NCBI RefSeq assembly: GCF_029867415.1
Contig: NC_081185.1
Coordinates: 124,748,920-124,812,919 of the forward strand
Origin: Vicia villosa
Lineage: Eukaryota; Streptophyta; Magnoliopsida; Fabales; Fabaceae
Length of the DNA: 64,000 nt
Reading direction: 5' to 3'
A program made the translations under genes and the position numbers. The notes beneath the pieces were generated by a model, which had not been told where the DNA came from, made no database searches, and saw only the letters and a list, made by a program, of their open reading frames with translations. This document shows, piece after piece, positions 32,802 to 54,053 of the stretch (position 1 is the first letter of the stretch; every line of letters starts with the position of its first letter).

Positions 32802-34423
32802 TTTGGAATGAACAATAAGTTGGACAAATTTTTTACTCCCTCATTATTACATTTTCAAGATTGATTTAAATTGATGAATCTCCTCATATTCTATTGGTGT
32901 CCAAATGTGTTGTGGTGTGAAGTGTGTTTGTTTGGACCAAAAGAAATGTGTTAAAAGAGTGTTATTGCGGCCTTTTCAAGTCCAGTAGCCAGCAGTTTGA
33001 TGTGTTAAGTGAACATTAGCAAGTGAAAGTTGGAAGAAATGACTTATATGTATAGCAATTTTAGGAAAAACTATCTTGTATTTTTATATCTATTTATAAT
33101 ATTGAATTTGTTGTTGCTATTGAAATATTAGTTTGCAATGGAAATTTTGTACACCAAATAACCAAATTCTTTAATAGCAAACTGTTTGTGTGTATTTTGA
33201 CATCCCTTCTTGAGCCGCATCCAATTTCAACAGGAAAAAAATATTGTTTTTGTTAGATATAAATAAAGATTTATTGAGAAATTTATAATGAAATTGTGAT
33301 ATAAGACAGTGTATTTATTGAATTTATTTAAAGATTTATAGTGAGGTAAATCTTAGCCTCTGATTGGTTGCCCAGTGAATCACCGCCACCGTGCGTTCAC
33401 AATCATTTTTACCGTGATTTCAAGAAGCAATTAAGTGTAGTTTCTAGTTTAACGTGACTTTTCACCGTGATTTCCTTTATCTCCAAACACATACTTAGTT
33501 CAATTAGTAAAAAATAAAAATTATTAAATTGAATATTATTACTAAGGTTGGTTCAATTAATTATTAAATTGAATATTATTACTAAGGTTGGTTCAATTAG
33601 TAAAAAGCTGATATTAATAAATTGAATGTTTTTACTAAGATTTGAACTTCGGTATTATAGATAGATTTGTGTGAGTGATTATTTTCACTTCGTCTATAGA
33701 TAATTTTTTTATTTATAGTGAGCTTGTGTTTAAATTTAGTCATTGTTTACTTAAGTTCCAAGCTTCTTTTTTTAGAGAATTAAAAAGTCAAGACAAAAAA
33801 AATACAGATTAAATGGTTATACACTTACTATACTTATGGGTGGTAACTGGTAATGGACTCCCTCAAAATTTTCTTTAATTTATTTTTTACATATCTTCAT
33901 CTTTGAATCCCTCTCCTTTTGATATTTAAGTAACTATATGCTTCAATGTATATATTTAATTCAACCTCTTTCCTTAAATATAAGATATATTTATAATAAA
34001 ATGAAATGTGAGGAGAGTCTTATAAAAATAGATAAAAAGAAAAAGTTAAGATAGTTTTTAATAATGGATAGAGGTAGTAATATATATAAAAAACTCCTTA
34101 AAAAAAATCTGAATATTTATTTATTTGTATATATTTATTTATTTAAATATTTAATATAACATTAATAAAATATACTGAGATTCGTAAATACTTGCCACTT
34201 TCTCTGCACTACTTTTTGGTAGAAAAAAAAGAGAGAACAAAATGATGAAAAGAAAATGAAGATCCAAAAGAATGATCCATCATCACTTTCTCTTGTTTGT
34301 TTCACTTGACCAAGCTTCAATCAAAAAACAAAGAAAGAACAAATAATAATCAATCCACCAATCACAATCTCTTCTCCTCATTACTACTCCAAACACTACC
34401 ACCATCATCATCACCAAATCAAA
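32802..34423. other. Intergenic DNA between SYP22 and the TMEM45-like gene
   Basis: It contains the SYP22 3' UTR, the tandem repeat at 33520-33599, and from about 34220 a purine-rich leader-like stretch for the next gene. Nothing else is recognised. Confidence 0.5.
33520..33599 (+). repeat. Perfect 40-bp tandem duplication
   Basis: Two identical 40-bp units, 33520-33559 and 33560-33599, ending AAGGTTGGTTCAATTA. A partial third copy follows. Confidence 0.9.
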
Positions 34424-35326
34424 ATGGGAAGTTTATTATACCAAGCATTATCATCCTCTGCACTCCTCTCCTTAGGTCTCTACCACTTCATTCTCACAAC
34501 CCTAAACTACCTCAAATCTCCCCACACCTACACATCCAAACCCTACCACCCTCTCCCCTCCTCCAACCACCCCCGTCTCCGCCCAATCCAGCTCTACTTC
34601 ATCATCTTCTCTCTCTCCATCGCCATCATCCACCACCTCATCCTCGCCACCGATTCCGATCCCTTAATCAAAGGCGCCACCCCCGTCCACCGCCTCACTT
34701 CTCTCCAATCCGCCTCCCTCCTTTTCCTCTTCCTAATCCTCTCCATCTCCCTCCTCCTCCCTCTCCCCCTCTCCCCCGATTTCTCCTTCTCTCTCCTCTC
34801 TCTACTCTTCCTCCTCCACTCCTCCCTCCAAACCTCCCTCTCCTCCCTCCAAAACTCCGCCCTCGAAGCCAAATGCGACTCCGTCTCCTCCAATCTCTCC
34901 GCTCTCTCCTCCTTCCTCTGTCTCCTCCTCGCTTGTTTCCCTCGTCTCTACCCCGCTGACGCCGCACTCGCCGCATCCATCTGTCTCCGAGGACTATGGG
35001 CTCTTCAGACCGGACTCTCTCTATACGCCGAAGCGTTTATCCCGGAAGGCTGTCATCGTCTCCTCGACGTCGTTAACGGCGTCGAAGGATCGACGCAGTG
35101 TGATCTCGATGAGTCTAAGTTTCGCGCGCTGGCGATTCTTGATCTGGCTTTTGTTGTTCATGTAATGCTGGTTATGATCATTGTTTTGGTTGCTTATGCT
35201 GCTGTTGCCACTACTGTTGGGACTGTTAGAAGGGTTGGATCCTATGAGGCATTGCCTACTGCTACGACTTCGCCTACGGATTCAAATCATATTCAGATGA
35301 AAGCTTTGGCTGGAACACAGGCTTGA
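34424..35326 (+). CDS. DUF716 / TMEM45-family membrane protein
   Basis: A single exon of 300 aa. It starts MGSLLYQALSSSALLSLGLY and has about six to seven hydrophobic segments: 8-30, 56-75, 93-118, 120-145, 158-175 and 232-262. The conserved features of the plant TMEM45/DUF716 family are visible: FIPEGCHRLLDVV, LRGLWALQTGLSLYAE, and a C-terminal segment LAILDLAFVVHVMLVM. The soluble C-tail is Thr/Ser-rich. Members are predicted multipass membrane proteins with poorly defined roles in plants. Intronless structure is usual for the family. The first half of the gene is strongly pyrimidine-biased on the sense strand. The start is supported by the upstream purine-rich leader and the ATGGGA context. 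Confidence 0.88.
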   Translation: MGSLLYQALSSSALLSLGLYHFILTTLNYLKSPHTYTSKPYHPLPSSNHPRLRPIQLYFIIFSLSIAIIHHLILATDSDPLIKGATPVHRLTSLQSASLLFLFLILSISLLLPLPLSPDFSFSLLSLLFLLHSSLQTSLSSLQNSALEAKCDSVSSNLSALSSFLCLLLACFPRLYPADAALAASICLRGLWALQTGLSLYAEAFIPEGCHRLLDVVNGVEGSTQCDLDESKFRALAILDLAFVVHVMLVMIIVLVAYAAVATTVGTVRRVGSYEALPTATTSPTDSNHIQMKALAGTQA

Positions 35327-38832: not shown

Positions 38833-40191
38833 TAGTTCAGATTCCAAGAAGGATCACAAGGGAAGAATTAACTCAACTAATTCCCCTTGAATGAATAACC
38901 AACTACGAGAGACTCCATGCTGACAAAAGACCTATCCAATCTCAAGAAGCTACTTTTAGAAGATCCGTTGACAAGAGGGTCAAGACGATTTTCAAGAAGC
39001 CAGACGAAGGATCGAGCTCGATATCTCCGATCTTTCAGACAATGATGATTCAACCAATTCTCAAAGAAGACTGGTGTACTGTCTATGCTGTTACAACAGA
39101 AGGAAAACCCATATACACTGATAAAATAGATGACCACTTCATTTGAGATGTTGATCCAACAAGGTGCGACCCAGATTGTGACTGTTGGATGCACGATAAT
39201 GATATTGACCGAGATATCATTCTTCCCAAGACTAAGAAAAAGGGAAGGTGTAAACCCTCCCCATCTCCCCAAAGGAGATCTGATCCAGACAATGGTCCAT
39301 GGGTAGGAATTCATGGGAAAAAGAAACCTGTATGCATCTATGAGGAAGGACTTAAAATTCTTAGGAAAGAAGGGTTGTTGCCACCCGATGATCCAACTCT
39401 TATTACATGGTCACCAGCAGACTATTGTAAGCCACTACATTCTCCAGCTGTTGCTCAGCCAATTCCTTGCTTTATGTATTCCACCGTAACTCAGGAGTAC
39501 GACCAGAAATTTCCAGCTTTGGAAAGAAAGATGGATCCAATCACAGGAAAAACTTCTAAGCCCTTCATTCATCCGAGTGAAGTCTAGCCTGATGGGAAAC
39601 TTAAACCATTAACTCAAGCTAAAGAAGTTCTCAATTGGCAATCGGAAAATATGGTTTCTCAAAATGAAATTCTCCAAAACCTTGACAAAAAGGTATATAA
39701 AATTGCTAAAAAAATAGACGAAATTAATGAGAACCTCATAGTCTTATCCCAAAAAAATACAAAAACATTACAGAATCCTGAAAGCCCAAGTATCCCAGCT
39801 AGATCGAGATTTGCGACAGATGTTAGAAGAAAGAACTTTTGGCAAAACATTTGACCAAAAGGAAAGAGAAATCAGAAGTCTACAAGGCCAAGTAAAAGAG
39901 ATAGATGATTTCTTAAGAGCCTCTCATAAAGGAAAGCCCAAGCCAGTTGAAAACTCGTTCTTTAACCCTCCTGCTTTTTTCAAAAAACTAGAAAGGCCTT
40001 CTCCTTTCTACCCCGCCTATATTTCTCCATCTCCAGACCAAGCCAAATACATACCTACAACCTACAGACCAAAATCTGCCAGAATTACCACTAACTCAAC
40101 CTTCAAGACAAAGGGGAAAGCTACCTGCTTGAGGACTAAACCAAATGGCGGTCCTTGGTTCACCTTTGGTGATATACCACCGAGCCGTTGA
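38833..40191 (+). pseudogene. N-terminal polyprotein region of the pararetrovirus relic
   Basis: Open pieces at 39189-39587, 39651-39854 and 39811-40191 follow a first segment that starts near 38823 and carries two stops. They include a Lys/Pro-rich stretch, a Trp-containing WVGIHGKKKP motif and a coiled-coil segment at about 39655-39760. Stops separate the pieces. The function of this region is not clear; it precedes the coat-like domain in the same reading direction. Confidence 0.55.
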
Positions 40192-40476
40192 AGAAAGAGA
40201 CTGCTTGAATTTGGAGCCTGGCTTGACACCCAAATGATGAAAACAAGTGCGGACAGCTATAAAAATCTCTTCTTTCTCCCTCAAAGCTTTAGAGGAAGAA
40301 TCTTATTTTGAAGAAGAGACTCCTGAAGAAACCCTAGTCCCTGAAAGGACTAAACCAAATGGCGGTCCTTGGTTCACCTTTGGTGATATACCACCGAGCC
40401 GTTGAAGAAAGAGACTACTTGAATTTGGAGCCTGGCTTGACACCCAAATGATGAAAACAAGTGCGGACAGCTATAA
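40132..40476 (+). repeat. Internal duplication with leader-derived segment in the relic
   Basis: A unit of about 131 bp (40132-40262, beginning AGGACTAAACCAAATGGCGG) recurs at 40346-40476 with about one mismatch. Directly after the first copy, 40261-40292 matches 44434-44465 in the transcribed leader (TCTTTCTCCCTCAAAGCTTT) with one mismatch. The order is coding unit, leader piece, short unique piece, coding unit again, so coding and leader sequences are joined out of order. Confidence 0.85.
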
Positions 40477-40501
40477 GATCATTGAAGAATTTTGTTGAAG
40501 A

Positions 40502-41710
40502 ATGACAGGCACTATGAAAGAATGGTATCACAATCTTGGAGCTTTCAAACAAGATGAGTTACATCGTCTAGAGACTACAACTAATGTTCTTGGAGTTCTT
40601 CACCGAGAATTTATCGGTGACATGGAGATATTTAATAGGAAAAACAGACAAGAATTCTTTGAGATGAAGTGTTGTTCTCTCAAAACAAAGGATCTCGACA
40701 AATATTATCACAGGATGGCACAGAGGTATTACGTCCTTAATGGATACAATGACCCTAGTCTCAAGAATACCTATGTATCCTCCCTACCACAAGAACTCCA
40801 GCCAGAAATTCATAGGATGTTAGCCATAGCTCAAAAGGATATTAAAACCATGAGTCTTTGACAGATTCACCAGGTGACGTTAGAAGCACTTGAAAAGCTT
40901 TGTAGTTTTCATCACCAATTTTCAGAAGTGATAGAACAGAAGTCAAAGTTCACCCAAGCATGTAAGAAGCCCTACCTGGAGATTAAATGTGAAGACAAAA
41001 GGTGTAGTTGTACAACAAAAAAGAAATATAAGAAACACATCAAATCTCACAGGACCTTCAAGGGAAAGAAAAGAAAGGATGTGAAGTTCTTTAGAAGAAA
41101 GCCTTTCAGAGGAAAAGGGAAAAATCATAGATGTTTTATCTGTGGGAGAAAGGGGCATTTCTCTAAAGAATGTCCTAATAATACCCATAAAGCTGCAAAA
41201 CTGATTAACTCTCTTCAGCCTCTAGAAGGAGATTTGGAATCTTTATACTTTGAACAAAGCTCGGCTGATGAAGAATCGGTCTTTGCCCTTCAAGACTCTT
41301 CGTCTGATGAAGCATCATTTTCAGAGTCAAAAGATGACAAATATCTCCTTGTTTACTCCTTGAAAGAGATAAGCAGTTCCCTTCCTACTACACCACTTCC
41401 TTGTGTTGAAGTTCATGTCCTTGCAACAAAGTATTCTCGTCCGAAGAAGGTTATAGCTTATATGGACACTGGAGCTCAAATTACAATGATGAATCCCAAC
41501 ATTCTCCCAACAGAATCATGGGAGACACATGCCGCATACTTTGTAGCAGCAGATGGAAAAGTTTTCAAGACAAACTTAATGACCAAGGAAAAAATAGGAA
41601 TCAAATTTTTCCCGGACTGCATAGTCTGGACCAAGGTCATTGGCAGTAATCTCCCTAACAAAGATATTGTGGTAGGAATGGATGTCTACTCAGCAGCAAG
41701 TAAACTTTAG
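40502..41710 (+). pseudogene. Coat-like domain, zinc knuckle and aspartic protease of the relic
   Basis: Two open pieces, 40502-40861 and 40874-41710, are separated by one stop. The first has a gag/coat-like region with a conserved WYHNLGAF start. The second has a Lys/Arg-rich tract and then a zinc knuckle CFICGRKGHFSKEC (C-X2-C-X4-H-X4-C) at about 41135. After an acidic linker comes a retroviral-type protease motif MDTGAQ at about 41462. The frame ends at a stop at 41708. Confidence 0.75.
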
Positions 41711-41949
41711 ACTCTCCCCACCGGAATCAAATTCAAATCCTATTCTGGGATATTGAAGCTATATTCACTGTCTAAGATTCCTGCTGGCTATGAAGAAATC
41801 AAGACCAAGCTTCTCAAACTATGTGCAGATAGCCATGAAAAATTCCAACATCCAAAACCTCTATGGAAGAATAAAGACTTCTTCGTTCAACTTCCCTTCA
41901 AGCTCAATGAAGATGTTAATCCAACCAAGGCCACTCATCCTGGAATGAG

Positions 41950-42440
41950 TCCTTCAGATTAAAAATTAGCTAGGGAAGAATGCAACCAGCTGCTCAAACA
42001 AGGCTTCATAGAACCCACCAAATCAGAATGGGCTTGCCAAGCATTCTATGTAGAAAACAGGTCTGAAAAGTTGAGGGGAAAAAAGAGGCTAGTAATTGAT
42101 TACAAACCTCTAAATCATTTTCTCAAGGATGATAAATTTCCCATTCCAAAGGCATCATCCTTAAACATTTTCATCAAAGATGCTCATATTTATTCTAAGT
42201 TCGGCCTTAAGTCAGGATTTTGGCAATTGGGTATTAATCCCGAGGATCGTTAGAAGACGGCGTTTTGCATTCCTAACGCTCAGTACCAGTGGACTGTGTT
42301 ACCATTTGGGCTTAAGGTAGCACCATCACTTTTTCAAAAGGCCATGACTAGAATTTTTGAGTCCATCCTCAACAATATCCTCATCTATATTGATGATGTG
42401 CTTTTATTCTCAAAAGATAAAAAAAACCCATAAACAATTA
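41950..42440 (+). pseudogene. Reverse transcriptase region of the relic
   Basis: Key landmarks are visible in order: an Arg-rich segment before VIDYKPLN (about 42090), a stop at 42251-42253, then YIDD of the polymerase active site at about 42384. A frameshift occurs in the A-run at 42417-42426, after which the frame changes. This copy cannot encode an intact enzyme. Confidence 0.75.
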
Positions 42441-44042
42441 TTGTGCCAATTTCTTCAAATAGCCCAACAACATGGAATGATGCTCCCTGAAAAGAAAAGT
42501 CAATTAGGACAGACAAAAATTGATTTTTTAGGCATGCACTTCTCCCAAGGGAAATACCAACCCCAACCTCATTTTGCTCAAGAATTGTTAAACTTTCATG
42601 ATGAAAATCTCACAGTCAAACAAATCCAACAATTTCTTGAAATAATTAATTATATCCGGGATTTCCTGCCGAAACTGGCGAGGTACACTAGTCCTCTATC
42701 CCAAATGCTGAAGAAAAAACCTCCACCGTGGGGAACACAACAAACTGAGGCGGTGAACGCTTTAAAGAAGATCGCACAAACTCCTCTTGCACTGAAAAAT
42801 CCCTGGAAATGGCAAAAGAATTCTACAGACTGATGCCAGTGATTACTATTGGGGAGCAGTTCTGATAGAAGAACTCGAAGGGAAAATATACTATTGTGGT
42901 CATATGCCAGTGGCCAAATCAAAGAAGTTTAAAAACATTATCACACCACCTACAAAGAAGACCTCGCAGTAAAAATGGGAATCCAAAAGTTTGACTTCCA
43001 CCTGAGAGGCTACCAATTTGAAGTCCAGATGGACAATTCTTCATCCTCTAAGATCCTTGAATTCAAAAATAAGATGCCCCCGGATCCTCAAACTCTCAGG
43101 CTCAAAGATTGGTTTTCCAGATATGATTTCACTGTAAAACATATCAAAGGAACCCAGTACGTAATCCCTGATCTACTATCTCGACCCATGAAACCCATCC
43201 AAATCATCACGGCCAAGCACACTTTCCCTCTAATTCTTATGGTCAAACCACTACCAACCCGTGCATCCACAATAAAGAATCTTCCTCCAGGAATAACAAT
43301 GTCTTCTTCACCGTCTCAGCTCAAACAGTATGTCAGGAACAATCTCTTTTATTACATGACAAAGATCATAAGGAATAAACTGCCAGATCATAGCCCTTAT
43401 TTCCCAAATACACCTTTTCTCCTACCAATCTTGATAAACCCTAATACTAAATTCACAAAGAATCATTTGTGGTATATCTGGTGTGCCACCTGTTTGTATT
43501 ATATGCCTGTTCTCATTCCCACTGAGGCCATGTATCAACACATAATGGACCCTAAGAAACACAAGTCTTTGATTTGGACTACTCTTGAATGGTACTCTCC
43601 ATTACAATGGTGGAGAGATCAATTAAAACCAGTCATGGACGAGGTCACAGAACGAAGATTATCTTCAAAAGATATTGGCAAACTCAAGTCTGTTTTCTTT
43701 CTACACGGGCCCTATATGACAGATCCTACAACAAAGCTGCTTAATTACAAGAGTTATGTTCACATATGGGAAACCATTGATGAATATCCTCCCAGTCTAA
43801 AAGTCACAAGGGAATTATTAGAGTATGTTAACTGCATCAATCTCTATGATCCAAAAAGTTACGATAATACTTCAACTTTCATACATCATGAAAAGTTTAA
43901 AAAACCAAAAATTGGAGAAAGCTCGGCCCAAGCTACACAGGAAAAACCAGATTCGCCAATGGAAGCTAAATTCTCTGAAGGTCGGGTGTTAGAAGCTAAT
44001 ACGAGATTAGCGGATCACACTTACATGATGGATGACATCTGA
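42430..44042 (+). pseudogene. RT thumb/RNase H and distal ORF of the relic
   Basis: The piece 42430-42833 (in another frame from the YIDD box) covers the RT connection region. RNase H begins with a TDAS motif at about 42830 after a further frame change, and continues in 42975-44042 with the MDNSS and LKDWFSRYDF landmarks. The rest of this last 355-codon frame, about 230 residues, has no integrase HHCC or DDE pattern and is unrecognised. It ends in an acidic tail. Confidence 0.65.
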
Positions 44043-44516: not shown

Positions 44517-44764
44517 TGCCTCTTAATGAGGATCTTGTGTATCAGAAAACATCTAACTATTGATCCATACTACGGTCCTTGTTGTTATGGAAGTTCAATT
44601 TTAATTGTTAGTCTATATTATGCCTATGGTTGACTTTTGATGCCTCTTAATGAGGATCTTGTGTATCAAAAAACATCTAACTATTGATCTATACTACGGT
44701 CCTTGTTGTTATGGAAGTTCAATTTTAATTGTTAGTCTATATTATGCCTATGGTTGACTTTTGA
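44517..44764 (+). repeat. 124-bp tandem duplication
   Basis: Units 44517-44640 and 44641-44764 are nearly identical, each beginning TGCCTCTTAATGAGGATCTT. They lie just downstream of the relic's leader. Confidence 0.9.
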
Positions 44765-44881
44765 TGACGAAACAGTTAAAGCTGTGTTTCATGATATGTA
44801 AGGGGAGACTCCCCTTGTAAGGGTACAAGTAAATGCTTCAAATATTTTTTTTTTCATTTCAGTGAACACTTCCACCTTGTA

Positions 44882-44945: not shown

Positions 44946-46757
44946 TTGCTAACACAATTTTTTGTATCAACAATCGATAATAGATATCAACACTCAAACC
45001 CTAATGACATGTTATCAGCAGTTGACATGAAAATTGATAATGGGCATCAACATTTGAATAAAACGCAATATCAACGTTTGAATAACGACACAGTATCAAC
45101 ATTTGAATTGTCGCACTATCAACAGAATAATACAAAACCGTTTGTTCAAATGTACAATTGTCATGAGTAGTATGCAGAATCAAATCATGTTAATACATAA
45201 TGAATCATACCGATTTTATTAGAACGCCTCAATTTTGATTTTATTAGAACGCCTCAATTCCAATAGTGTATATCGGATTCACATTAATTGAAAGGAGACA
45301 ACACATATTTCTTAAACATATAAATGTGTCATTTTAACAGATTCATTTTTTTAACAAACATGACAACATACGATTCACAATCATCTAAAAGCATGTAGTC
45401 ACCAATGACCAATCCATGGTTTTGTAAGTCACTTTGTTACCAAGTCACTTTGTTACCACTTAACGGAAATTGCGAGTAAACAAAGAAAACGCAACAGATA
45501 AAATACAAAAGTTTGCTTTGTGATGAATCCTTTACAAATGGTCACGAGTCAAAGATTGATTGATTGATTACATCTTGTCGCGTGGAACCGTTGATTGTCT
45601 AAATTGATTGATCACAAGTGCTAGACAAATGACAACACACCTACCTAGTCCACACGAACAAAACCTGCAATACGTGAGTCTTCTATCTAAAATGCTAGTT
45701 GTGAATGAACAGAAGCCTAGGAGAAAACATACTCATAATCCATAATCCTAGTGGGTAGAGTTTTGAGAACACAAGAATGATTGACCATCACTTGTAGAAG
45801 GGTTCGATTTATAGAACATTTATATGCACCATAGCTTACGACGAATTATGTTTTTGTAACCAACGATAGTGTTTCGTAAGAATTCACCATCGATTCATGA
45901 ATGAATCATATTCATTAATTTAACTTCTTATTTATTTGTCCTTATGTGTATGTAGGCTCTAATAACTTGACATGAAAATAACATGGACGAAGTAGTTTCA
46001 TCTTGACCCAAAAGATATTTTGTTCTGATGACTACAATCGGCACAAAGACAATGGCTTCACTAAACTTAATAACTACCAATCTAGTGACAATAGAATTTC
46101 AACGCGAACATAGCACACGAATAAGAACTCACAAATTCATTTTGCATCAGAGGAGCACATAAATAAGAACTCACCTTGCAACAGCTGTATTGAGCAAAAC
46201 GATATATTCCATCTTTTATTTAAGTCTTTAACGATCTCACTATTTTCTTGATCAAAACCTACCATGTCTTTATCATGCAAAAGAATCTTGTAGAAGACAA
46301 AGAGGCTTTACCATCAAAACCTACCATGTCTTTAGCATGCAAAAGAATCTTTTAGAAGACAAAGAGGCTTTACCTTTGTGTGCTGACGTAAGGCAACAAG
46401 GTTATGCATGCACTATAAACAGTCATAACATACAGTACTCACTGCGTGATCAACTGAGCCAATGTCCGATTCAACATTTAGAATTCAGTTCCACAAGTTA
46501 GTTGATAAAAAGATTGTATATAAACACTTTCTTCAGTTGTAAATGCATTCTGAAAAGTTGAATACATAATTGATATTCAATTTCTCTCAAATTCCTGTAA
46601 CTGAACGAGAGAGAATCATTTCTCTCAAGTTCCTATTCTAGACTTGTTTCACAAACTACCGACTGTAACTTCTCTTATAAGAAATACAATCTCAGGACCT
46701 GTTTCACAAAGTACATTACAATCGGTGCTTGCTTGGCAAAGAATGTTAACCATAATC
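44946..46757. other. Left flank of the snRNA cluster, repeat-rich
   Basis: No gene is recognised. It contains short tandem repeats (TTTTATTAGAACGCCTCAAT twice near 45215-45260, a 19-bp repeat near 45422-45460, a 62-bp one at 46251-46374). A first copy of a spacer block found three more times inside the cluster lies at about 45965-46200. An LTR-like TATA region (TTGTATATAAACACTTTC) occurs near 46515. Confidence 0.5.
46251..46374 (+). repeat. 62-bp tandem duplication
   Basis: Units 46251-46312 and 46313-46374 both begin ATCAAAACCTACCATGTCTT. Confidence 0.85.
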
Positions 46758-46771
46758 TTGAACTAACATTG
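46758..46771 (-). terminator. Plant snRNA 3' box of U5 copy A
   Basis: The minus strand reads CAATGTTAGTTCAA, matching the plant 3'-end signal CA(N)3-10AGTNNAA immediately after the U5 3' stem. Confidence 0.8.
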
Positions 46772-46891
46772 CAGAGCCCTCAATAAAGAGGACTCTTCCA
46801 AAAACTAGCGCATGCCGCTAAAAGTGACGCTGACACGGTATTCTTTAGTAAAAGGCGAAAGAATAGTTCGCTAAGTCATCATCACACGGCT
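46772..46891 (-). ncRNA. U5 snRNA, copy A (intact)
   Basis: About 120 nt on the minus strand. The 5' end AGCCGTGTGATGATGA leads into stem-loop I: TATTCTTT pairs with AAAGAATA and encloses the invariant loop CGCCTTTTACT, which aligns both exons at the spliceosome core. An Sm site (AGTTTTTGG) and a terminal hairpin, GAGTCCTC facing GAGGGCTC, complete the RNA. Upstream are a TATA box and a perfect USE; downstream is a consensus 3' box. All elements of a functional plant Pol II snRNA gene are present. The 5' end is inferred by family similarity. Confidence 0.92.
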
Positions 46892-46921
46892 TCGTGATTG
46901 TTAAATGAGGAGGTCCTTTCA

Positions 46922-46970
46922 TTTTATATGCGATTAGCTTAGTTTTTTAACGCATTAGACAATGTGGGAC
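46922..46970 (-). promoter_or_regulatory. U5 copy A promoter: TATA box and USE
   Basis: The minus strand has the USE GTCCCACATTG (46960-46970) and an ATATAAAA TATA element (46922-46929), about 30 bp upstream of the RNA start. The wide USE-TATA spacing is the plant Pol II snRNA type; Pol III types are about one helical turn closer. Confidence 0.82.
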
Positions 46971-47216
46971 TTTAGTCAGATACCCACTCATTTGACCTCT
47001 GCCTTTTCTACCTTCTACGATGAATAAACAAATGAAGCTTTCGTTGGAAAGTCTTTGGAAGACAAAGACAGCGTTGATAGAATCGTGAAGGACGGGTCTT
47101 GGATAAGCTGACGACAATATAAATCCTAACCCGAAGCTAATCTAATCTAACACCTTTACATGATCCAGTGTCTTAAAACATTCTTCCAATAATTGAAAAT
47201 AACAAGGATAAATTAG

Positions 47217-47400
47217 TTTCATCTTGACCCAAAAGAAATGTTGTTCAGATGACAACATTAATGTAAAGACAATGGCTTCACTAAATTTAATAACTAAAAA
47301 TTCAATCTAGCAACAACTGAATTTCAATGCAAAAGTAGAAGATGAAACAACATGAATAAGAACTCACCTTGCAAGTTGCAACAAAAGAATTGTATTGAAC
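47217..47400. repeat. Duplicated spacer block of the snRNA cluster (copy 2)
   Basis: It shares TTTCATCTTGACCC, CAAAGACAATGGCTTCA and GAATAAGAACTCACCTTGCA in order with blocks at about 45965-46200, 50725-50910 and 53280-53470. The block lies upstream (higher coordinates) of a U5 gene in three cases, so it marks the duplicated unit. Confidence 0.75.
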
Positions 47401-47913
47401 TAATTGATCTATTCCCTCTTTTGTTCAAGCATATAGGGTGTACAGACCGAGCTAAAAAGCAACAGTTTCTGTGGGAAGGAGACAACTCAATAAGGATAAC
47501 TTTGTCTTTGTTTATTGAAATTGAGAGTGCAATATCAGTATGTCAAACTGCTTGTAAACAACATACACTTGAATCATCATTTAGATATGCACAATCAGTA
47601 AAGATAGAACCTAACACATATTAGAAGCATTTTTATATAAATAAATCCCAAAGCAGGAGTTAAAAAACGATTATATTACTTGAATGTGATTATTGTGTCC
47701 TTGAATTCTAAGGAGACGAGAACATAAGTTTAGTGGATGAATCACGACGTGTGATTAGCGTCTAGGATGTTCACCATGTTGCGATTAATGGAAATATCTT
47801 CAAGACATAATGACGGAAGTACTGTTACAGATTCTCTCCCTAAAAAACTAAGTATGCGGACAGTAGTTGACAATTAGCTTTGTTTCAAAATAATCCTTAA
47901 AAACTCAATTATG

Positions 47914-48072
47914 AGGGGCTGCGCGAACGCAAGCCCCCACAGCAACAAATTATGATGTAGGCTCCACCACTTGGGTAGACCTTAGGCTAGCGCCCCTCCT
48001 GAGTGCAATGGAGGTCACTAGCCTAGGCCATGGGCCTTCATGATCACCCATTGACCCCATCCAGGTAAGTAA
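47914..48072 (-). ncRNA. U1 snRNA gene
   Basis: About 159 nt on the minus strand. The 5' splice-site recognition sequence ACTTACCTG is at the 5' end (48061-48070 on the plus strand as CCAGGTAAGT). Stem-loop I has GATCATGAAG, the U1-70K site. Stem-loop II has CCATTGCACTC, matching the U1A-type loop. An Sm-like site lies in ATAATTTGTTG, and the last hairpin is GGGGGCTTGCGTTCGC..GCAGCCCC. The RNA appears complete. The first base reads T where plant U1 has A, if the start is assigned correctly. Confidence 0.92.
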
Positions 48073-48096
48073 CTTATAATGAATCACACACTTCTA

Positions 48097-48147
48097 TTTT
48101 ATACTTGATGCTCCATACTATTCTCTCTAACAATTCCGATGCGGGAC
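48097..48147 (-). promoter_or_regulatory. U1 promoter: TATA box and USE
   Basis: The minus strand has GTCCCGCATCG (48137-48147), one base off the USE consensus RTCCCACATCG, and a TATAAAA element at 48097-48103, about 25-31 bp upstream of the RNA start. The spacing is of Pol II type. Confidence 0.78.
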
Positions 48148-48451
48148 TATGATAACACGAGACAATTTAAGTATCAGCGTCGGCATTCTTTTTGTGAAAG
48201 ATACTCATCACTGTCCTGTTTTTCAGTACAGTTACTTACATGTATAATTTTGCTCTCATTATGAAATTAACTGAGATCCAATCTTATCTTTCATATCAAT
48301 CTTTATTTGTTTCAAGTTAATGTTTTTAGTCTGGAAAAAGTAGTCGAAGAGAAAACCAAGCAGTTCTGGGAGTTGAAGATTTTTTTGTGGCTTGATGAGA
48401 ATGAAGTAAATTCAAAAAATTTGGTACTGGTTTAATGACCGGGCTATTTTA

Positions 48452-48596
48452 CTACTCTGGTCCTATTTATAAGAAAGAGTTAGCTTTTTAGATTCATTGG
48501 ATAATCAATATATCTAATTTATATATTGTCCAAATACATTAGTTATTCAATGAATTTAAAAGGCAAACTTTTTCTTATATATAGGACCAAAGGAAG
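48452..48596. mobile_element. Stowaway-type MITE, about 145 bp
   Basis: The ends CTACTCTGGTCCTATTTATA and the inverted CTTCCTTTGGTCCTATATAT are flanked by TA on both sides (48450-48451 and 48597-48598). The whole unit folds as a hairpin. The TA target and CTNCNCTGGTCC-like ends fit Tc1/mariner Stowaway elements. Confidence 0.65.
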
Positions 48597-48635
48597 TACT
48601 TCTTAGAACAAATATTAAAATTGAACTTAATTTAT

Positions 48636-48740
48636 AGGACTTTACCCCCTAAGAGTAGGTTTGGAGATAATTTTTAACCAACAATAGACATGCCTCGGTT
48701 AGAATCTCACTAGCAGTGTCATTGCCCCAAGCGCAAAGAC
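48636..48740 (-). pseudogene. U4 snRNA pseudogene 1 (Sm region deleted)
   Basis: The minus strand begins with the U4 5' part: TCTTTGCGCTTGGGGCAATG, the 5' stem-loop (CTAGTGAGATTCTAACCGAGG) and the GTCTATTG..GGTT region. Compared with the intact U4 at 53826-53978 it then jumps from CTCTTA straight to GGGGTAAAGTCC. The segment with the Sm site and half of the 3' hairpin is missing. No USE occurs at the expected distance upstream. It is therefore very unlikely to yield a stable snRNP. Confidence 0.85.
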
Positions 48741-48869
48741 AAGCAAATATTTAAAGCAAAAAATAGTATTATAGTAGTAAAAAAATCCAGTCACCAAACC
48801 AGTACCAAATTTTTTGAATTTACTTCCTTCTAATCCAGCCACATATTGACAATCTTCAACTCCCAACAA

Positions 48870-50279
48870 AAAATATTATAAGCAACTTATCCAGCTACTT
48901 GGTCTCTTTAGTTTTACAGTACATTTCCCACTCCCAGTTGCAGTTATATACACGACAGAGTGCCTAGCTACAGATACTCTCAGATTCATACAGTGAAAAT
49001 TTAGCCGAAGAGTGATAACCCTTCTAAGGTGCATACAGTGAAAATTTAACCGAAGAGTGATAACCTGGTTTCATCTAAAAGGAGATAGTTTAGATTTCCA
49101 TCGGGTGTAGGAGCAGAACTAGAATTAAGTATAATTCTAAAAGTCAATTGTGGAGAAACCTTATATTTCTTAAATTTTTAGTCATGCCTAATAAAAGGTT
49201 GTATATAAACACTTTCTTAAGTTGTAATATGCATTTTAAAAAGCTGAATAGATAATTGATATTCAGTGTCAATTTCTCTCTCAAATTTCTTCCAATTTTA
49301 TCCTCTATCTGGTTCAGTTTCATTCACTAAGTACAGATGTTGCCTCACAGTGATCTCCACACAAGGTATCAAATCTGTTTCGTATTATTATGTAGTCGGA
49401 TAATTAGATTTATGGATTTTCGATAGTGGAACTACTTTCCACATATGCTCTACTTTGGACATATTTTCTACATATAAAACGACAAATTCAATACACGTTA
49501 AATTACCTGATGGTAATAAGACCACAGCAGAATTTTGTAGTTAAGTGCATCTCACTGACTCTATTGTCTTAATTGATGTTTCTATATCGAAATTGGCAAA
49601 AGATTCTGCATATATTGCAACTGAGCTCTTGTGTTTTTGATTCAGTTAACAAAAGTTTGTTTATTAATTCCTTTGTGAGTTTATATTTATTCTGCATATG
49701 TTGCAACTGAGATTCTGTAGTTTTATACTTTTATTCTTTTTCGGCTTCAGTTGATCTAAATTTGCCTTTTGAGGCCACTATGTAAGTTTCTTGTAATGAA
49801 ACATGTTAGTAGCATGGAAAAATTGCATAGAAACTTCTTTTTGTTGGTATACGGAGACTAATCCTTGAACCGTGTAGAACATATCAAGCTTAAGCAACTG
49901 AGCCACTGTCGAACATATCAGGATTAGAATTCAGTTCCAATTAGGTTCTTACAACTGTAGAATTCAGTTCCAATTAGGTTCTTACAACTGGGCCGAACAT
50001 ATCATCAAGATTAGAAATCAGTTCCGATTAGGTTCTTACAACTGGGCAGACTCCGCACTTGTGGTTAAAATTTAGTTCTACAAGTTAGTTGAGAACAAGC
50101 TTGTATATAAACACTTTGTTTAGTTTCATTCACTAATATAGTATAAAAGCTCAGAATAGCACTGAGCTGTGCTTGTTAATGGCCACAATCATAACATGGA
50201 ACCTACTGATCCTACATAAAATCCATAATGCCAGCATCCCGCTAATTATGAGGCATGGCAAAGAATGTGAACTAGAATC
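48870..50279. other. Spacer between U4 pseudogene 1 and U5 copy B
   Basis: It has duplicated stretches: CATACAGTGAAAATTTA.CCGAAGAGTGATAACC twice (48988 and 49032), and a GAATTCAGTTCCAATTAGGTT-type unit three times at 49935-50045. LTR-like TATA regions (GTATATAAACACTTT) sit at 49200 and 50100, related to those near 46515 and 52870. No gene is recognised. Confidence 0.55.
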
Positions 50280-50293
50280 TTGAACTAACATTG

Positions 50294-50413
50294 CAGAGCC
50301 CTCAATAAAGAGGACTCTTCCAAAGACTAGCGCATGCCGCAAATTGTAACGCTGACACGGTATTCTTTAGTAAAAGGCGAAAGAATAGTTCGCTATGTCA
50401 TCATCACACGGCT
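50294..50413 (-). pseudogene. U5 snRNA, copy B (full length, probably inactive)
   Basis: About 120 nt, with the complete stem-loop I and CGCCTTTTACT loop and a matching 3' box (50280-50293). Two likely damaging changes set it apart from copy A. The Sm site reads AGTCTTTGG instead of AGTTTTTGG. The USE at 50482-50492 reads GTTCCACATTG instead of GTCCCACATTG. A TATA element remains (TATAAAA, 50444-50450). A variant U5 is possible, but decay is the simpler reading. Confidence 0.75.
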
Positions 50414-50724
50414 TCGTGACTATCGTATGTAGAGGTCTTTTCATTTTATAGGTGATCAGCTATGTTTTTTAATGCAATAGACAATGTGGAACTTTAGTCA
50501 GATACCCACTCATTTGACCTCTACCTTTTCTACCCTCTCCAATGAATAGACATATGAAGCTTTCATTGGAAACTCTTTGGAAGACAAAGACAGAGTTGAT
50601 AGAATCGTGAAGGACGGGTCTCGGATAAGCCGGTGACTATAAATCCTGACCCAAAACTAATCTAACACCTATATATGATCTAGTGTCTTACAACATTCGT
50701 CCAAACATAGACATAAAAATAACA

Positions 50725-50910
50725 GGGACAAATTAGTTTCATCTAGAGACCCAAGAGATACATTGTTTCGATGAAAACATCAACACAAAGACAATGGCTT
50801 CACCATATTTAATAACTAAAAATTCAATCTAGAAACAGTTGCATTTCAACGCAAATATAGAAGATGAAACAACATGAATAAGAACTCACCTTGCAACAAA
50901 CGAATTGTAT
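50725..50910. repeat. Duplicated spacer block of the snRNA cluster (copy 3)
   Basis: The same order of words as 47217-47400, including CAAAGACAATGGCTTCA and AACATGAATAAGAACTCACC. Confidence 0.75.
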
Positions 50911-51056
50911 GGAGCTAATCGATCTATTCCATCATTTGTTTAAGCATATATATATAGGGTGCACAGACCGAGCTACAGCCAAACATCAGATTTCACTTGG
51001 AGAATAAAAAGCAACAGCTTCTGTGGGAAGGAGACAACTCAATAAACGTAACACCA

Positions 51057-51350
51057 TGATAGGGAGCTTAATAGAATAATTTATTATTAGTTTTATTAGT
51101 ATTTTGATGTATTAGAGGAAATTATATTTTCTAGAATATTCTTAAGATATTTTGGGCTTTTAAATAGCTTTTGGGCTTTTAGTTATTTATCCATTAGGAG
51201 TACTATATATGTAGTGTCTATGACACATTAAAGAATATCAAAGAAAAGAAATCAAAGTTTATCTTTATCTTTTATTTACTTTTAGTGTTCTTCCCCTTTT
51301 AGTGTAGAAAACTCTAATTTCATATTCTTGGTAGGAATAGCTTCCTATCA
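51057..51350 (+). mobile_element. Solo LTR, 294 bp, copia-like
   Basis: It begins TGATAGGGAG and ends CTTCCTATCA (TGATAGG..CCTATCA). Perfect 5-bp direct repeats CACCA flank it at 51052-51056 and 51351-51355. It interrupts a spacer region shared with the first unit of the cluster. A TGGTATCAAAAT sequence 20-odd bases downstream resembles a primer site, so a truncated element rather than a solo LTR is an alternative. Confidence 0.65.
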
Positions 51351-51851
51351 CACCACCAGAGCTGCTTTTTATGGTATCAAAATCTGGAAAAATTACAAGA
51401 CTTATTTGAAAAAAAAAAATTATATAAATAAATCCCAAGCAAGAGTTATATAAAAAACAATCATATTACTTGATCGTGATCTGTACTATAGGCTCATACT
51501 ATTGTGTCCTTGAATTCTAAGGAGATGAGAACATAAGTCTGGTGGATGAATCATGACCGTGTGATGAGAGTATGATTAACGCCAAGAATGGTCTCCATGT
51601 TGTGGGCATCATCTTCAGCTGTAGATGATGGTTCTCAGTTGGTTCTACTCACCTAGCCAGCATTTGGGTCCTTTCAATGGAAATTTCCTTAGGACGCAAA
51701 AACAGTGTTTATGGAACTGTGAAGGATGTGTCCAGGATTAACTGATGGCTTTATAAATTCTGACTGGAATTACTGTTACGGATTCTCTACCTAAAAAAAT
51801 AAGAATCATTGTGGATAGTAGTTGACAACTAGCTTAGCTCACTAAATTTGT

Positions 51852-51953
51852 AGGACTTTACCTCTAATAAGGGGTTTAGAAATAGTTTTCAACCTGCAAT
51901 AGACGTGCCTCGGTTAGAATCTCACTAGCTGCGTCGGTGTCCCAAGCCCAGAC
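51852..51953 (-). pseudogene. U4 snRNA pseudogene 2 (Sm region deleted, 5' end damaged)
   Basis: The central U4 part is clear (GCAGCTAGTGAGATTCTAACC, CGAGGCACGTCTATTG, GGTTGAAAACTATTTC). The 5' end, GTCTGGGCTTGGGACACC, has lost and changed bases relative to TCTTTGCGCTTGGGGC. As in pseudogene 1 the Sm-bearing segment is missing. It shares its upstream flank with pseudogene 1, so the two descend from one already promoter-less copy. Confidence 0.82.
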
Positions 51954-52329
51954 AAGCAAATATTTACAGCAAAACATAATATTATAGTAAAAAAAATCCA
52001 ATCACTAAACCAGTACCAAAGTTCTTGAATTTTACTGCCTTCTAATCCAGCCACATATTGACAATCTTCAACTCCCAACAGAAAATACAAAATGCAAGCA
52101 ACTTATCCAGCTACTTGATCTCTGTAGTTTCTCAATACATTTTCAAAGTATAATTCTGAACGTCAGTCAATCGCAACTGAAACCAAAAAACATAACATAA
52201 TAGTAAGCAAAATAAGCAAAGAGAATTCAAAGATAAAAATCAAATCAAATGATAAAACAAAACTAAAATTCAACACAAATGATCAAATCTAAATGAGAGC
52301 CAAATATAGACAAACTTGAACTAAGATTG

Positions 52330-52449
52330 CAGAGCCCTCAATCAGGAGGACTCTTCCAAAAACTATCGTATGCCGCTAAATGTGACGCTGACACGGTATT
52401 CTTTAGTAAAAGGCGAAAGAATAGTTCGCTATGTCATCATCACACGGCT
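52330..52449 (-). ncRNA. U5 snRNA, copy C (weak TATA)
   Basis: About 120 nt. Stem-loop I, the CGCCTTTTACT loop and the Sm site AGTTTTTGG are intact, with small changes in the lower stem (GGCATACGATAG versus GGCATGCGCTAG in copy A). The 3' box, CAATCTTAGTTCAA, fits. The USE GTCCCACATTG (52519-52529) is perfect, but the TATA position reads ACATACATAATG, a poor match. It may be expressed weakly. Confidence 0.8.
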
Positions 52450-52518
52450 CCGTGAATGTTTGAAATAGAGGTCCTTTCATTATGTATGTGAGCAGCTTAG
52501 CTTGTTTTATGCATTAGA

Positions 52519-52529
52519 CAATGTGGGAC
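52519..52529 (-). promoter_or_regulatory. USE of U5 copy C
   Basis: GTCCCACATTG on the minus strand, about 70 bp upstream of the RNA start. Identical to the USE of copy A and of the intact U4. Confidence 0.75.
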
Positions 52530-52699
52530 TTCCGTTACAGACCCCCTCAATTTACCCTACTTTTTCAATATTTGAAGACCCTTTCAGTGGAAAATTCTTT
52601 GGGAGACAAAGACAGTGTTGATGGAATCGTGAAGGACGAGTGCAAGATAAGCTGATAACTTTATAGATCCTGACCGAAGCTAATCTAACCTTTCTTCGG

Positions 52700-53101
52700 C
52701 CAAATATTGACATGAAAATAACATGGCCAAAGTAGTTTCATGTTGACCCAAGAGACAAACGATACCCCACCAGGATGCTTAAGCATACATAGTATACAGA
52801 CTGAGCCACCCAACTCAGCATTCGTAGTTAGAATTCAGTTTCACAAGTTAGTTGATAACAAGCATGTTATATAAACACTTTCTTCCGTTGTAACTTGCAA
52901 TATGTGTTTTGAAAAGTTGATTGCATAATCAATCTTCAATGTCAATTTATCTCTCAAATTCCTTTCAATTTGATCCTCTAGACAAAATCCATAATACAAG
53001 AATCCTGCTAAAGCGAATTATTTTCAATCCTACCTATAAGGCTTGGCAAAGAATGTGAAATATAAAATTGCAAAGACTTGCAAAGAATGTGAAATACAAA
53101 A
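52700..53101. other. Spacer with LTR-like fragment between U5 copies C and D
   Basis: It contains the recurring LTR-like stretch (GTTATATAAACACTTTCTTC near 52865, then TCTCTCAAATTCCTTTCAAT). A duplicated TGCAAAGAATGTGAAATA unit lies at 53045-53098. Confidence 0.5.
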
Positions 53102-53115
53102 TTGAACTAAAATTG

Positions 53116-53231
53116 CCGAGCCCTCAAAAAAGAGGACTCTTCCAAAAACTAGCGCATGCCGCTAAATATGATGCTGACACGGTATTCTTTAGTAAAAGGC
53201 GAAAGAATAGTTCGCTTTGTCATCATCACAC
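53116..53231 (-). pseudogene. U5 snRNA pseudogene, copy D (5' end and promoter lost)
   Basis: The 3' part, Sm site and stem-loop I are present and the 3' box fits (53102-53115). Similarity stops within TGTGTGATGATG; the first bases (AGCCG) are gone. The next sequence, CCAGTGTCATCATACAACATT, is spacer that lies some 250 bp further upstream in copy A. A deletion therefore removed the 5' end, TATA box and USE together. Confidence 0.88.
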
Positions 53232-53279
53232 AGGGACTAATTATATGATCCAGTGTCATCATACAACATTCGTCTAAAC

Positions 53280-53470
53280 ATTGACATGAAAAATGACATG
53301 GACTAATTAATTTCATCTTGACCCAAAAGATATATATTGTTCTGGTGACAACATCAACCCAAAGACAATGGCTTCAGCAAATTTAATAGCTAAAAATTCA
53401 ATCTAGCAACAATTGAATTTCAACATAACATAGCAGATGAAACAACATGAATAAGAACTCACCTTATCAT
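53280..53470. repeat. Duplicated spacer block of the snRNA cluster (copy 4)
   Basis: It corresponds to 47217-47400 and 50725-50910, with TTTCATCTTGACCC and CAAAGACAATGGCTTCA in order. Confidence 0.72.
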
Positions 53471-53810
53471 CAATTGGATTTTTTCCTCAATCGAAAAGGT
53501 TCACCGCAAGAATCTGGCCCATTAACCAAACACTCATTCATGTCATACACGTAAACGAAAGTCCAAGTACAGTTATGGATTCTCTTCCTAAAAAATTAGG
53601 TATCATGTTGACAGTAGTTGACAACTAGCTTAACTCACTCACCAGCTATTCACAGCCTAAATTTCAAACTGCTTGTAAACAGAAGAAAGACATTCAAATA
53701 AGTCAAACTCAAAACAGGAAACAAAAACAGAGTTATATTAATCTTTATATTGTTACAGCTTAAAATATAAAATATGGAAAAAGTAGTGTAAGAGAAAACT
53801 AAGATGAAAA

Positions 53811-53824
53811 TTGAACTAAATTTG
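53811..53824 (-). terminator. Plant snRNA 3' box of the U4 gene
   Basis: The minus strand reads CAAATTTAGTTCAA, matching CA(N)3-10AGTNNAA. Confidence 0.8.
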
Positions 53825-53825
53825 T

Positions 53826-53978
53826 AGGACTTTACCCCAAAGGGAGTCCTTTCAAAAATTCTCAAAGGCTCAAGTTGAACTCAAGCCTAAGAGGGGGTTT
53901 GGAAATAGTTTTCAACCAGCAATAGACGCGCCTCGGTTAGAACCTCATTAGCTGCGTCATTGCCCCAAGCGCAAAGAT
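53826..53978 (-). ncRNA. U4 snRNA gene (intact)
   Basis: About 153 nt on the minus strand, starting ATCTTTGCGCTTGGGGCAAT, where U4 pairs with U6. The 5' stem-loop with its K-turn region (CAATGACGCAGCTAATGAGG) follows, then the central region, an Sm site (AATTTTTGA), and a 3' hairpin, GGACTCCC..GGGGTAAAGTCC. The upstream TATA box and USE and the downstream 3' box are all consensus. U4 chaperones U6 in the tri-snRNP until activation. This is the only U4 copy in the cluster with all parts. Confidence 0.92.
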
Positions 53979-54003
53979 ACTTTTTAATAAACAGTAAACC
54001 TCG

Positions 54004-54053
54004 TTTTATATATCTTGAAAGTCATCAAATTTCTCTCATTAGCAATGTGGGAC
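54004..54053 (-). promoter_or_regulatory. U4 promoter: TATA box and USE
   Basis: The minus strand has the USE GTCCCACATTG (54043-54053) and the TATA element ATATATAAAA (54004-54013), about 27-35 bp upstream of the RNA start, with Pol II-type spacing. Confidence 0.82.

Follow-up and report, generated by a model that had tools for sequence, protein, structure and literature searches.

The minus-strand U4, U1 and U5 loci of this region very probably form a mixed snRNA array in which a composite block underwent segmental duplication, followed by birth-and-death, with five genes most likely still transcribed and the rest surviving as relics. They occupy about 7 kb of a legume chromosome, the host probably belonging to the Fabeae, and lie to the right of a DUF716 gene at 34.3-35.3 kb. 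The array is a U4/U1/U5 composite with embedded U3 relics, and a richer variant of the known two-type plant clusters. Its features are collected in Table 1, with positions in the window, the whole 64-kb stretch of DNA that was analysed.

Composition of the array

A cmscan of the window at Rfam gathering thresholds returned 8 matches, each on the minus strand and inside 46758..54053: one U1 (RF00003), three U4 (RF00015) and four U5 (RF00020; E-values from 1.6e-14 to 2.2e-13), each above its gathering threshold. With the Rfam models, no U2 or U6 match was found up to E 1 within the window. The original prediction had proposed eight minus-strand U1/U4/U5 loci, ordered from right to left as U4, U5-D, U5-C, U4 pseudogene 2, U5-B, U4 pseudogene 1, U1 and U5-A; the covariance models scored all eight, in that same order. 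As a gene set the proposal stands for the eight snRNA loci, but U5-D has no promoter, two U3 relics had been overlooked, and the repeat units run beyond 46758..54053, down to about 45958.

A recognisable promoter precedes five of the eight snRNA loci (1 U1, 1 U4 and 3 U5); decay or the lack of a promoter marks the remaining three as well as both U3 relics. Judged by promoter, U1, U4, U5-A, U5-B and U5-C look like working genes.

Table 1. Positions of RNA loci, promoter elements and repeated blocks in the window
Feature	Position	Strand	Details
U5-A 3'-box-like motif	46758..46771	-	CAN3-10AGTNNAA
U5-A snRNA gene	46775..46891	-	RF00020, 85.9 bits
U5-A promoter	46922..46970	-	USE GTCCCACATTG (-79), TATAAAA (-37), gap 31 nt
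Shorter U3 snoRNA relic	47667..47760	+	RF01847, 32.6 bits, E 6.5e-5
U1 snRNA gene, intact body	47912..48072	-	RF00003, 150.3 bits, E 1.8e-38
U1 promoter	48097..48147	-	USE GTCCCGCATCG (-75), TATAAAA (-31), gap 33 nt
U4 pseudogene 1	48600..48740	-	RF00015, 59.7 bits, E 8.5e-11
U5-B snRNA gene	50297..50413	-	RF00020, 86.2 bits
U5-B promoter	USE from 50492	-	USE GTTCCACATTG (9/11), TATAAAA, gap 31 nt
Larger U3 snoRNA relic	51460..51683	+	RF01847, 67.8 bits, E 1.4e-15
U4 pseudogene 2	51834..51955	-	RF00015, 50.0 bits, E 3.3e-8
U5-C snRNA gene	52333..52449	-	RF00020, 90.9 bits
U5-C promoter	USE from 52529	-	USE GTCCCACATTG, variant TATA TACATAA, gap 32 nt
U5-D, normal body	53119..53235	-	RF00020, 86.5 bits
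U4 snRNA gene, intact	53828..53978	-	RF00015, 113.7 bits, E 4.5e-25
U4 promoter	54004..54053	-	USE GTCCCACATTG 54053-54043 (-75), TATAAAA 54010-54004 (-32)
Other 3'-box-like motif starts	U5-B 50293, U5-C 52329, U5-D 53115, U4 53824	-	4 nt past model end
Block copy I	52800..53977	-	U4, U1-type 3' flank 53565-53639, spacer, U5-D, U5 3' flank; matches II and III
Extra spacer and U5-C unit after copy I	52310..52755	-	self-matches
Block copy II	50050..52142	-	U4 pseudogene 2, U1-type 3' flank 51761-51835, U3 relic, spacer, U5-B, 3' flank
Further U5 3' flank, no U5 body	49191..49307	-	matches 46508-46596, 52855-52980
Block copy III	46453..48926	-	U4 pseudogene 1, MITE, U1, U3 relic, spacer, U5-A, 3' flank
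Truncated further spacer copy, no U5 body	45967..46224	-	matches 50710-50944, 47194-47388, 53273-53462

Promoters and 3' boxes

We took a USE placed about four helical turns from a TATA box as the plant Pol II-type promoter. This arrangement is present at five of the eight loci and lacking at U5-D and at U4 pseudogenes 1 and 2. In all five promoter-bearing loci (U1, U4, U5-A, U5-B and U5-C) the two elements lie 30-33 nt apart, a Pol II arrangement that fits the wide USE-TATA spacing described for Pol II snRNA genes (PMC9845283). At U4 the gap is 32 nt, or 30 nt if the overlapping TATATAA is taken instead. USE matches at 10/11 number four in the window, each located between -75 and -80 of a locus; the expectation from shuffles is 0.65. 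At 9/11 the matches in the window are no more frequent than chance predicts (9 observed, 11.35 expected), and the 9/11 USE of U5-B stands in the same relative place as the others. Two weak points of the set are this weaker USE and the non-canonical TATA of U5-C (TACATAA). Most likely, the five genes would be transcribed separately by Pol II, each from its own USE and TATA, and would yield ordinary, redundant snRNA.

The 3' box of plant snRNA genes has the consensus CAN3-10AGTNNAA. A motif of this kind follows five of the eight loci (the four U5 and U4), with its start exactly 4 nt beyond the end of the model in every case; no such motif was found up to 60 nt from the ends of U1, U4 pseudogene 1 or U4 pseudogene 2. 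At its first base, U1 has T in place of the A of the Rfam consensus. The activity of U1 is less certain because of this substitution and the missing 3'-box motif.

U4 and U1 loci

Of the sequences that were folded, the intact U4 has a 5' domain, a central stem-loop, the Sm-type site AATTTTTG and a 3' stem-loop, and the U1 carries the 5'-splice-site pairing sequence ACTTACCTG. Among the three U4 loci, only that at 53828-53978 retains the central stem-loop and Sm site of a functional U4. In the alignment, both U4 pseudogenes have one common deletion that removes these two elements, and their promoters are absent too. By homology to U4, the body of pseudogene 1 ends near 48638 and the shared 3' flank near 48607. 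Between the two pseudogenes, body identity (82.3%) is lower than upstream identity (90.7%), as expected where constraint is absent.

U5 copies

In all six pairs the U5 bodies resemble each other more closely than the compared flanks do (one-sided Fisher p from 5.7e-5 to 0.049, uncorrected for the six tests), the comparison being with the 5' flank for A-B, A-C and B-C and, in the D pairs, with 45 nt of 3' flank. The alignment indicates that U5-D lost its promoter and first few nucleotides through an internal deletion, with the common upstream spacer kept at 53241-53480, and no USE at 9/11 or better lies in front of it. Since the promoter is absent, U5-D is not an equal gene copy. It is nevertheless as similar to the other copies as the promoter-bearing ones are among themselves (92.7-94.5%), a sustained similarity that points to gene conversion, to decay that is recent, or to a function.

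Across the four copies, 95.8% of the cells in the covariation set are paired, with three further pair types and no double-sided change; one pair is broken in U5-D or U5-A, and one position lacks a partner in every copy. Shuffled sets give the same result, so a set of four is too small to inform on covariation. No exact U5 pattern matched in prokaryote or viral contig collections, as expected of such collections.

U3 snoRNA relics

The two plus-strand U3 loci appear to be homologous relics that are no longer in working order, both scoring below the Plant_U3 gathering threshold of 80 bits. The larger has a recognisable 5' part, which agrees with the Rfam consensus at 92 of the model's first 121 positions, and a degenerate 3' end and box D region. 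The shorter is homologous to it and lies in the same context; its box A region is partly deleted in the alignment. U3 in plants belongs to the Pol III class. On the plus strand within the cluster, no USE at 9/11 or better was found upstream of the larger relic.

Repeated blocks

Within 45.0-55.5 kb we counted 37 self-matches at E<=0.05 after removal of self, mirror-image and overlapping rows, compared with 0 to 3 for each of 10 shuffled queries. They outline three copies of a composite block made of U4, a U1-type 3' flank, antisense U3 (in two of the three copies), spacer and U5. The common spacers measure from about 190 to several hundred bp and include those upstream of U5-D and of both U4 pseudogenes. 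Inter-copy matches are collinear and on the same strand in 17 of 20 cases (III-II 5/7, III-I 6/7, II-I 6/6), which bears out the earlier proposal that spacers recur with the genes and that the cluster grew by segmental duplication. Three matches depart from simple block duplication. Two are out of order, one between 47038-47135 and 51671-51769, the other between 47540-47638 and 53661-53750 (the latter at E 0.017, yet with an exact 18-nt match inside); the third, between 48367-48454 and 51985-52077, is inverted. The Rfam models found no U5 body at 49191..49307 or 45967..46224.

The compared flanks differ by 9-23% between copies; divergences of 9-21% would place the duplications roughly 5-20 million years ago, at assumed substitution rates of 6e-9 to 1e-8. 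Matches to MIR2593 and MIR6224 at 48451-48597, below the cut-off and on both strands, are not microRNA genes and belong to an AT-rich MITE-type inverted repeat, whose self-complementary match spans 48455-48592.

Taken as sequence evidence, these patterns indicate growth of the array through segmental duplication, with decay now under way. A U4-...-U3(antisense)-U5 block, of which U1 may have been part unless it joined copy III only, would have been duplicated, after which one copy's U4 would have been stripped of promoter, central stem-loop and Sm site. This copy, with its defective U4, may then have been duplicated again to give copies II and III, and the U5-D promoter would have been lost afterwards. 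U5-D, two U4 copies and the two U3 copies would be read as relics.

Alternative explanations

An array kept under selection for coordinated dosage, its linkage maintained for joint expression of U1, U4, U5 and once U3, could draw on the single strand of all eight snRNA loci, the one promoter class of five of them and the conserved U5 bodies. We consider it improbable: the promoter-bearing genes are unbalanced in number (1 U1, 1 U4, 3 U5), each stands under its own promoter, U2 and U6 are missing from the matches, and the decay of three snRNA loci and both U3 copies argues against it. Scattered retroposition would account for the promoterless state of U5-D and both U4 pseudogenes; the spacers common to the copies, even upstream of these very loci, and the absence of a poly(A) tail in the sequence next to U5-D make it very improbable. 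Duplicated regions are prone to misassembly, but flank differences of this size lie far above assembly error, and the copies have private changes (the MITE in copy III, different deletions), so that an assembly artefact is hardly credible.

Segmental duplication with decay might also be extended backwards, to an ancient block in which U4, U1, antisense U3 and U5 were already linked before duplication and which other legumes would share. U4, the U1-type 3' flank and U5 recur in three copies and U3 in two, and the U4-U1 intergenic stretch of copy III (48293-48360) matches the region 3' of the copy I U4 (53735-53803; E 2.3e-9). U1 itself, however, is present in one copy of three, and its acquisition once by copy III is more parsimonious than its loss from two copies, which leaves the extension rather unlikely. 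Equally tentative is the wider idea that an ancestral U4 - U1 - U3 (antisense) - U5 block exists in legumes, or in dicots at large, and that the window holds decaying descendants of it. If so, spliceosomal and ribosome-processing RNA genes would once have been linked and duplicated together; we know of no earlier plant linkage of U3 to Pol II snRNA genes.

Relation to known snRNA gene clusters

Mixed plant snRNA clusters are a kind already published; this one differs in the three types, U4 before U1, and the U3 relics. The locus shows how a composite block carrying several types of plant snRNA gene can spread as a unit and afterwards decay piecemeal, which may help explain the many snRNA copies and pseudogenes in plant genomes. 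Apart from this mode of spread, it is ordinary gene-family evolution.

The Drosophila snRNA genes at 38AB lie close together. Four snRNA gene clusters are described in Drosophila (PMC545797), and the paralogue names at 38AB include U2, U4 and U5 (PMC4291461); these resemble our array in holding several snRNA types at one locus, although in another kingdom. Euglena gracilis has linked U3-U5 genes in many duplicated versions, a U3 snoRNA gene adjoining U5 on the opposite strand, and as of 2009 such linkage was described as known nowhere else (PMC2784804). In Euglena the pair is convergent, whereas here the U3 relics stand head-to-head to U5 and converge with U4/U1. The same paper cites a 2.7-kb Leishmania region with U3, U1, 5S and ten tRNA genes.

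In the open-licence literature, among the matches listed, we found no report of a plant cluster that combines U1, U4 and U5 or contains U3. A coffee ncRNA survey (PMC7549347) describes snoRNA clusters and, in 12 of its 16 relevant places, no mixed snRNA cluster. Close parallels are known from Arabidopsis, where seven clusters combine U1 with U4 and one combines U2 with U5 (Wang and Brendel 2004, PMC545797); there, linked major-snRNA genes of different types are likewise duplicated and some pairs include pseudogenes. Those clusters hold two types each, whereas ours holds three, in composite blocks repeated over 7 kb, plus the U3 relics. Their U1 lies 180-300 nt upstream of U4, a placement not found here; the order is reversed, with U4 pseudogene 1 about 530 nt upstream of U1 in model coordinates.

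Structure and duplication of the snRNA cluster

The original prediction recognized a U1/U4/U5 cluster in the raw sequence and proposed Rfam covariance models as a check. The cluster is sound: at gathering thresholds, the only loci that cmscan reports anywhere in the 64-kb window are one U1, three of U4 type and four U5 (U5-A to U5-D), eight in all, and each lies on the minus strand within 46775-53978. No further spliceosomal RNA appeared in the window when the threshold was lowered to E≤1 (17 matches). Besides two U3 relics, the sub-threshold matches consist of microRNA models hitting a MITE-like inverted repeat and of four weak hits in other parts of the window.

Features of the cluster (window positions; the array runs 5' to 3' from high to low coordinates)
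Feature	Position	Strand	Remarks
U4	53828-53978	-	
U5-D	53119-53235	-	
U5-C	52333-52449	-	
U4 pseudogene 2	51834-51955	-	
U5-B	50297-50413	-	
U4 pseudogene 1	48600-48740	-	
U1	47912-48072	-	
U5-A	46775-46891	-	
Block copy I	~53977 down to 52800	-	self-comparison
Extra spacer and U5 unit	after copy I		U5-C
Block copy II	52142-50050	-	self-comparison
Block copy III	48926-46453	-	self-comparison
Lone U5 3' flank	49191-49307		
Spacer remnant	45967-46224		without U5
U3 snoRNA relic, larger	51460-51683	+	67.8 bits, E 1.4e-15; inside cluster; cmscan, E≤1
U3 snoRNA relic, smaller	47667-47760	+	32.6 bits, E 6.5e-5; inside cluster; cmscan, E≤1

Self-comparison of 45.0-55.5 kb returned 37 matches, not counting self, mirror and overlapping rows, versus 0 to 3 per shuffled query (10 shuffles). 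It reveals three copies (I, II and III), in one orientation, of a composite block. Seventeen of the 20 inter-copy matches keep both collinear order and strand (III-II, 5/7; III-I, 6/7; II-I, 6/6), which supports the earlier proposal that the array grew through segmental duplication. Two of the others are out of order (47038-47135 with 51671-51769; 47540-47638 with 53661-53750) and one is inverted (48367-48454 with 51985-52077); these non-collinear matches point to later internal rearrangement. An 18-nt exact fragment shared out of collinear order by 47543-47560 and 53664-53681 also hints at such rearrangement.

Shared by all three copies are U4-type sequence, U5 with its spacer and 3' flank, and a stretch found in copy III on the 3' side of U1; copies II and III also carry a U3 relic. 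U1 itself is found in copy III only, where the sequence on its 5' side matches the one that follows U4 in copy I. This places U1 at the position that a U4-U1 intergenic region would occupy. U1 may have belonged to the ancestral block, but its gain in copy III would take fewer events than two losses. The two U4 pseudogenes have a deletion and upstream sequence in common, so the loss in U4 probably predates the II/III duplication. Copy III additionally holds a MITE-type AT-rich inverted repeat (48455-48592) with sub-threshold MIR2593/MIR6224 matches on both strands. Sequence from just ahead of U4 pseudogene 1 is duplicated in inverted orientation on the far side of that pseudogene and the MITE (48367-48468 and 48761-48865, ~105 nt, 83%).

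Candidate active genes and constraint

Plant snRNA promoters combine an upstream element, the USE (RTCCCACATCG), with a TATA box, spaced by about four helical turns in Pol II genes and one turn closer in U3 and U6 (Pol III), according to PMC9845283. The window contains four USE matches at 10/11 positions (0.65 expected from shuffling), each preceding an snRNA locus (U5-A, U1, U5-C and U4). U5-B has a 9/11 match at the corresponding place, a level at which matches overall are no more frequent than chance (9 seen, 11.35 expected). In these five loci, 30-33 nt separate the USE from the TATA box, which takes the form TACATAA in U5-C. Using the consensus CAN3-10AGTNNAA, we located a 3'-box-like motif beginning exactly 4 nt past the model end in U4 and all four U5 loci, and found none after U1 or the U4 pseudogenes. 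Alignment with A, B and C shows that U5-D keeps its body and 3' box and lacks their promoter region, the shared upstream spacer abutting its 5' end directly. The motif scan of the window found no USE before either U4 pseudogene; both share one deletion spanning the central stem-loop, the Sm site and the 5' arm of the 3' stem-loop. Five of the eight loci (U1, U4, U5-A, U5-B and U5-C) are thus candidate active genes.

Across the six U5 pairs, bodies (first 7 nt excluded) are 92.7-94.5% identical and flanks 77.3-88.9%. Testing body against flank gives one-sided Fisher p 5.7e-5 to 0.049, uncorrected; this test used ~450 nt of 5' flank for A-B, A-C and B-C, but for the three D pairs no more than 45 nt on the 3' side. 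The U4 pseudogenes show the reverse pattern, with bodies 82.3% and upstream sequence 90.7% identical. This fits constraint or gene conversion acting on the U5 bodies, and neither on the U4 pseudogenes. Most observations are explained by birth-and-death evolution in a mixed cluster that grew by segmental duplication; the loose ends are the three out-of-place matches and promoterless U5-D, which is kept as well as the other U5 copies. The dosage interpretation of the array lacks support.

U3 relics and comparison with known clusters

The one really unexpected element of the cluster is the pair of U3 relics, which lie antisense to the snRNA array and were absent from the original prediction. Both score below the Rfam cut-off for U3 (80 bits). 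Over the first 121 positions, the larger carries the Rfam consensus base at 92, whereas degeneration has affected its 3' part and the box D region. Since the two align with each other and have common flanks, they represent duplicates of one former U3 gene.

Linkage of different plant snRNA types is already known from Arabidopsis: PMC545797 describes seven U1-U4 clusters, in which U1 lies 180-300 nt upstream of U4, together with a single U2-U5 cluster and with U2 and U5 copies duplicated in tandem. Compared with these arrangements, the Vicia villosa cluster, a variant of this mixed linkage, has a U4-type copy ahead of U1, three snRNA types and a composite duplication unit. In Euglena, U3 is linked to U5, an association that PMC2784804 states was then unknown elsewhere; the same paper also cites a Leishmania region in which U3 occurs with U1, 5S and tRNA genes. 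In our searches of open-licence papers, we found no report of a plant cluster combining three snRNA types with U3.

Surroundings of the cluster

Recent tandem duplications adjoin the array at 44517-44766 (period 124, 98%) and 46251-46374 (period 62, 96%). Beside the cluster, 39147-44042 (+) is a retroelement or pararetrovirus-like relic: of five ORFs scanned, one has a CCHC zinc knuckle, two give weak matches under the Pfam cut-off (reverse transcriptase in one, RNase H in the other), and two have no match. Farther away are a Copia-type LTR retrotransposon gag ORF (PF14223; 26460-26927, -) and pieces of ordinary plant genes encoding phosphoribosyl-AMP cyclohydrolase (11112-11603, +) and DEAD-box helicase (19661-20059, +) domains. 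Another such piece encodes a DUF716 membrane protein (34310-35326, +). Judged from this one protein, the host is probably a member of tribe Fabeae distinct from the pea in the database: the best match is pea (Lathyrus oleraceus / Pisum sativum; tribe Fabeae; 96% identity), followed by Trifolium (90%), Cicer (89%) and Medicago (85%) in a database clustered at 90%.
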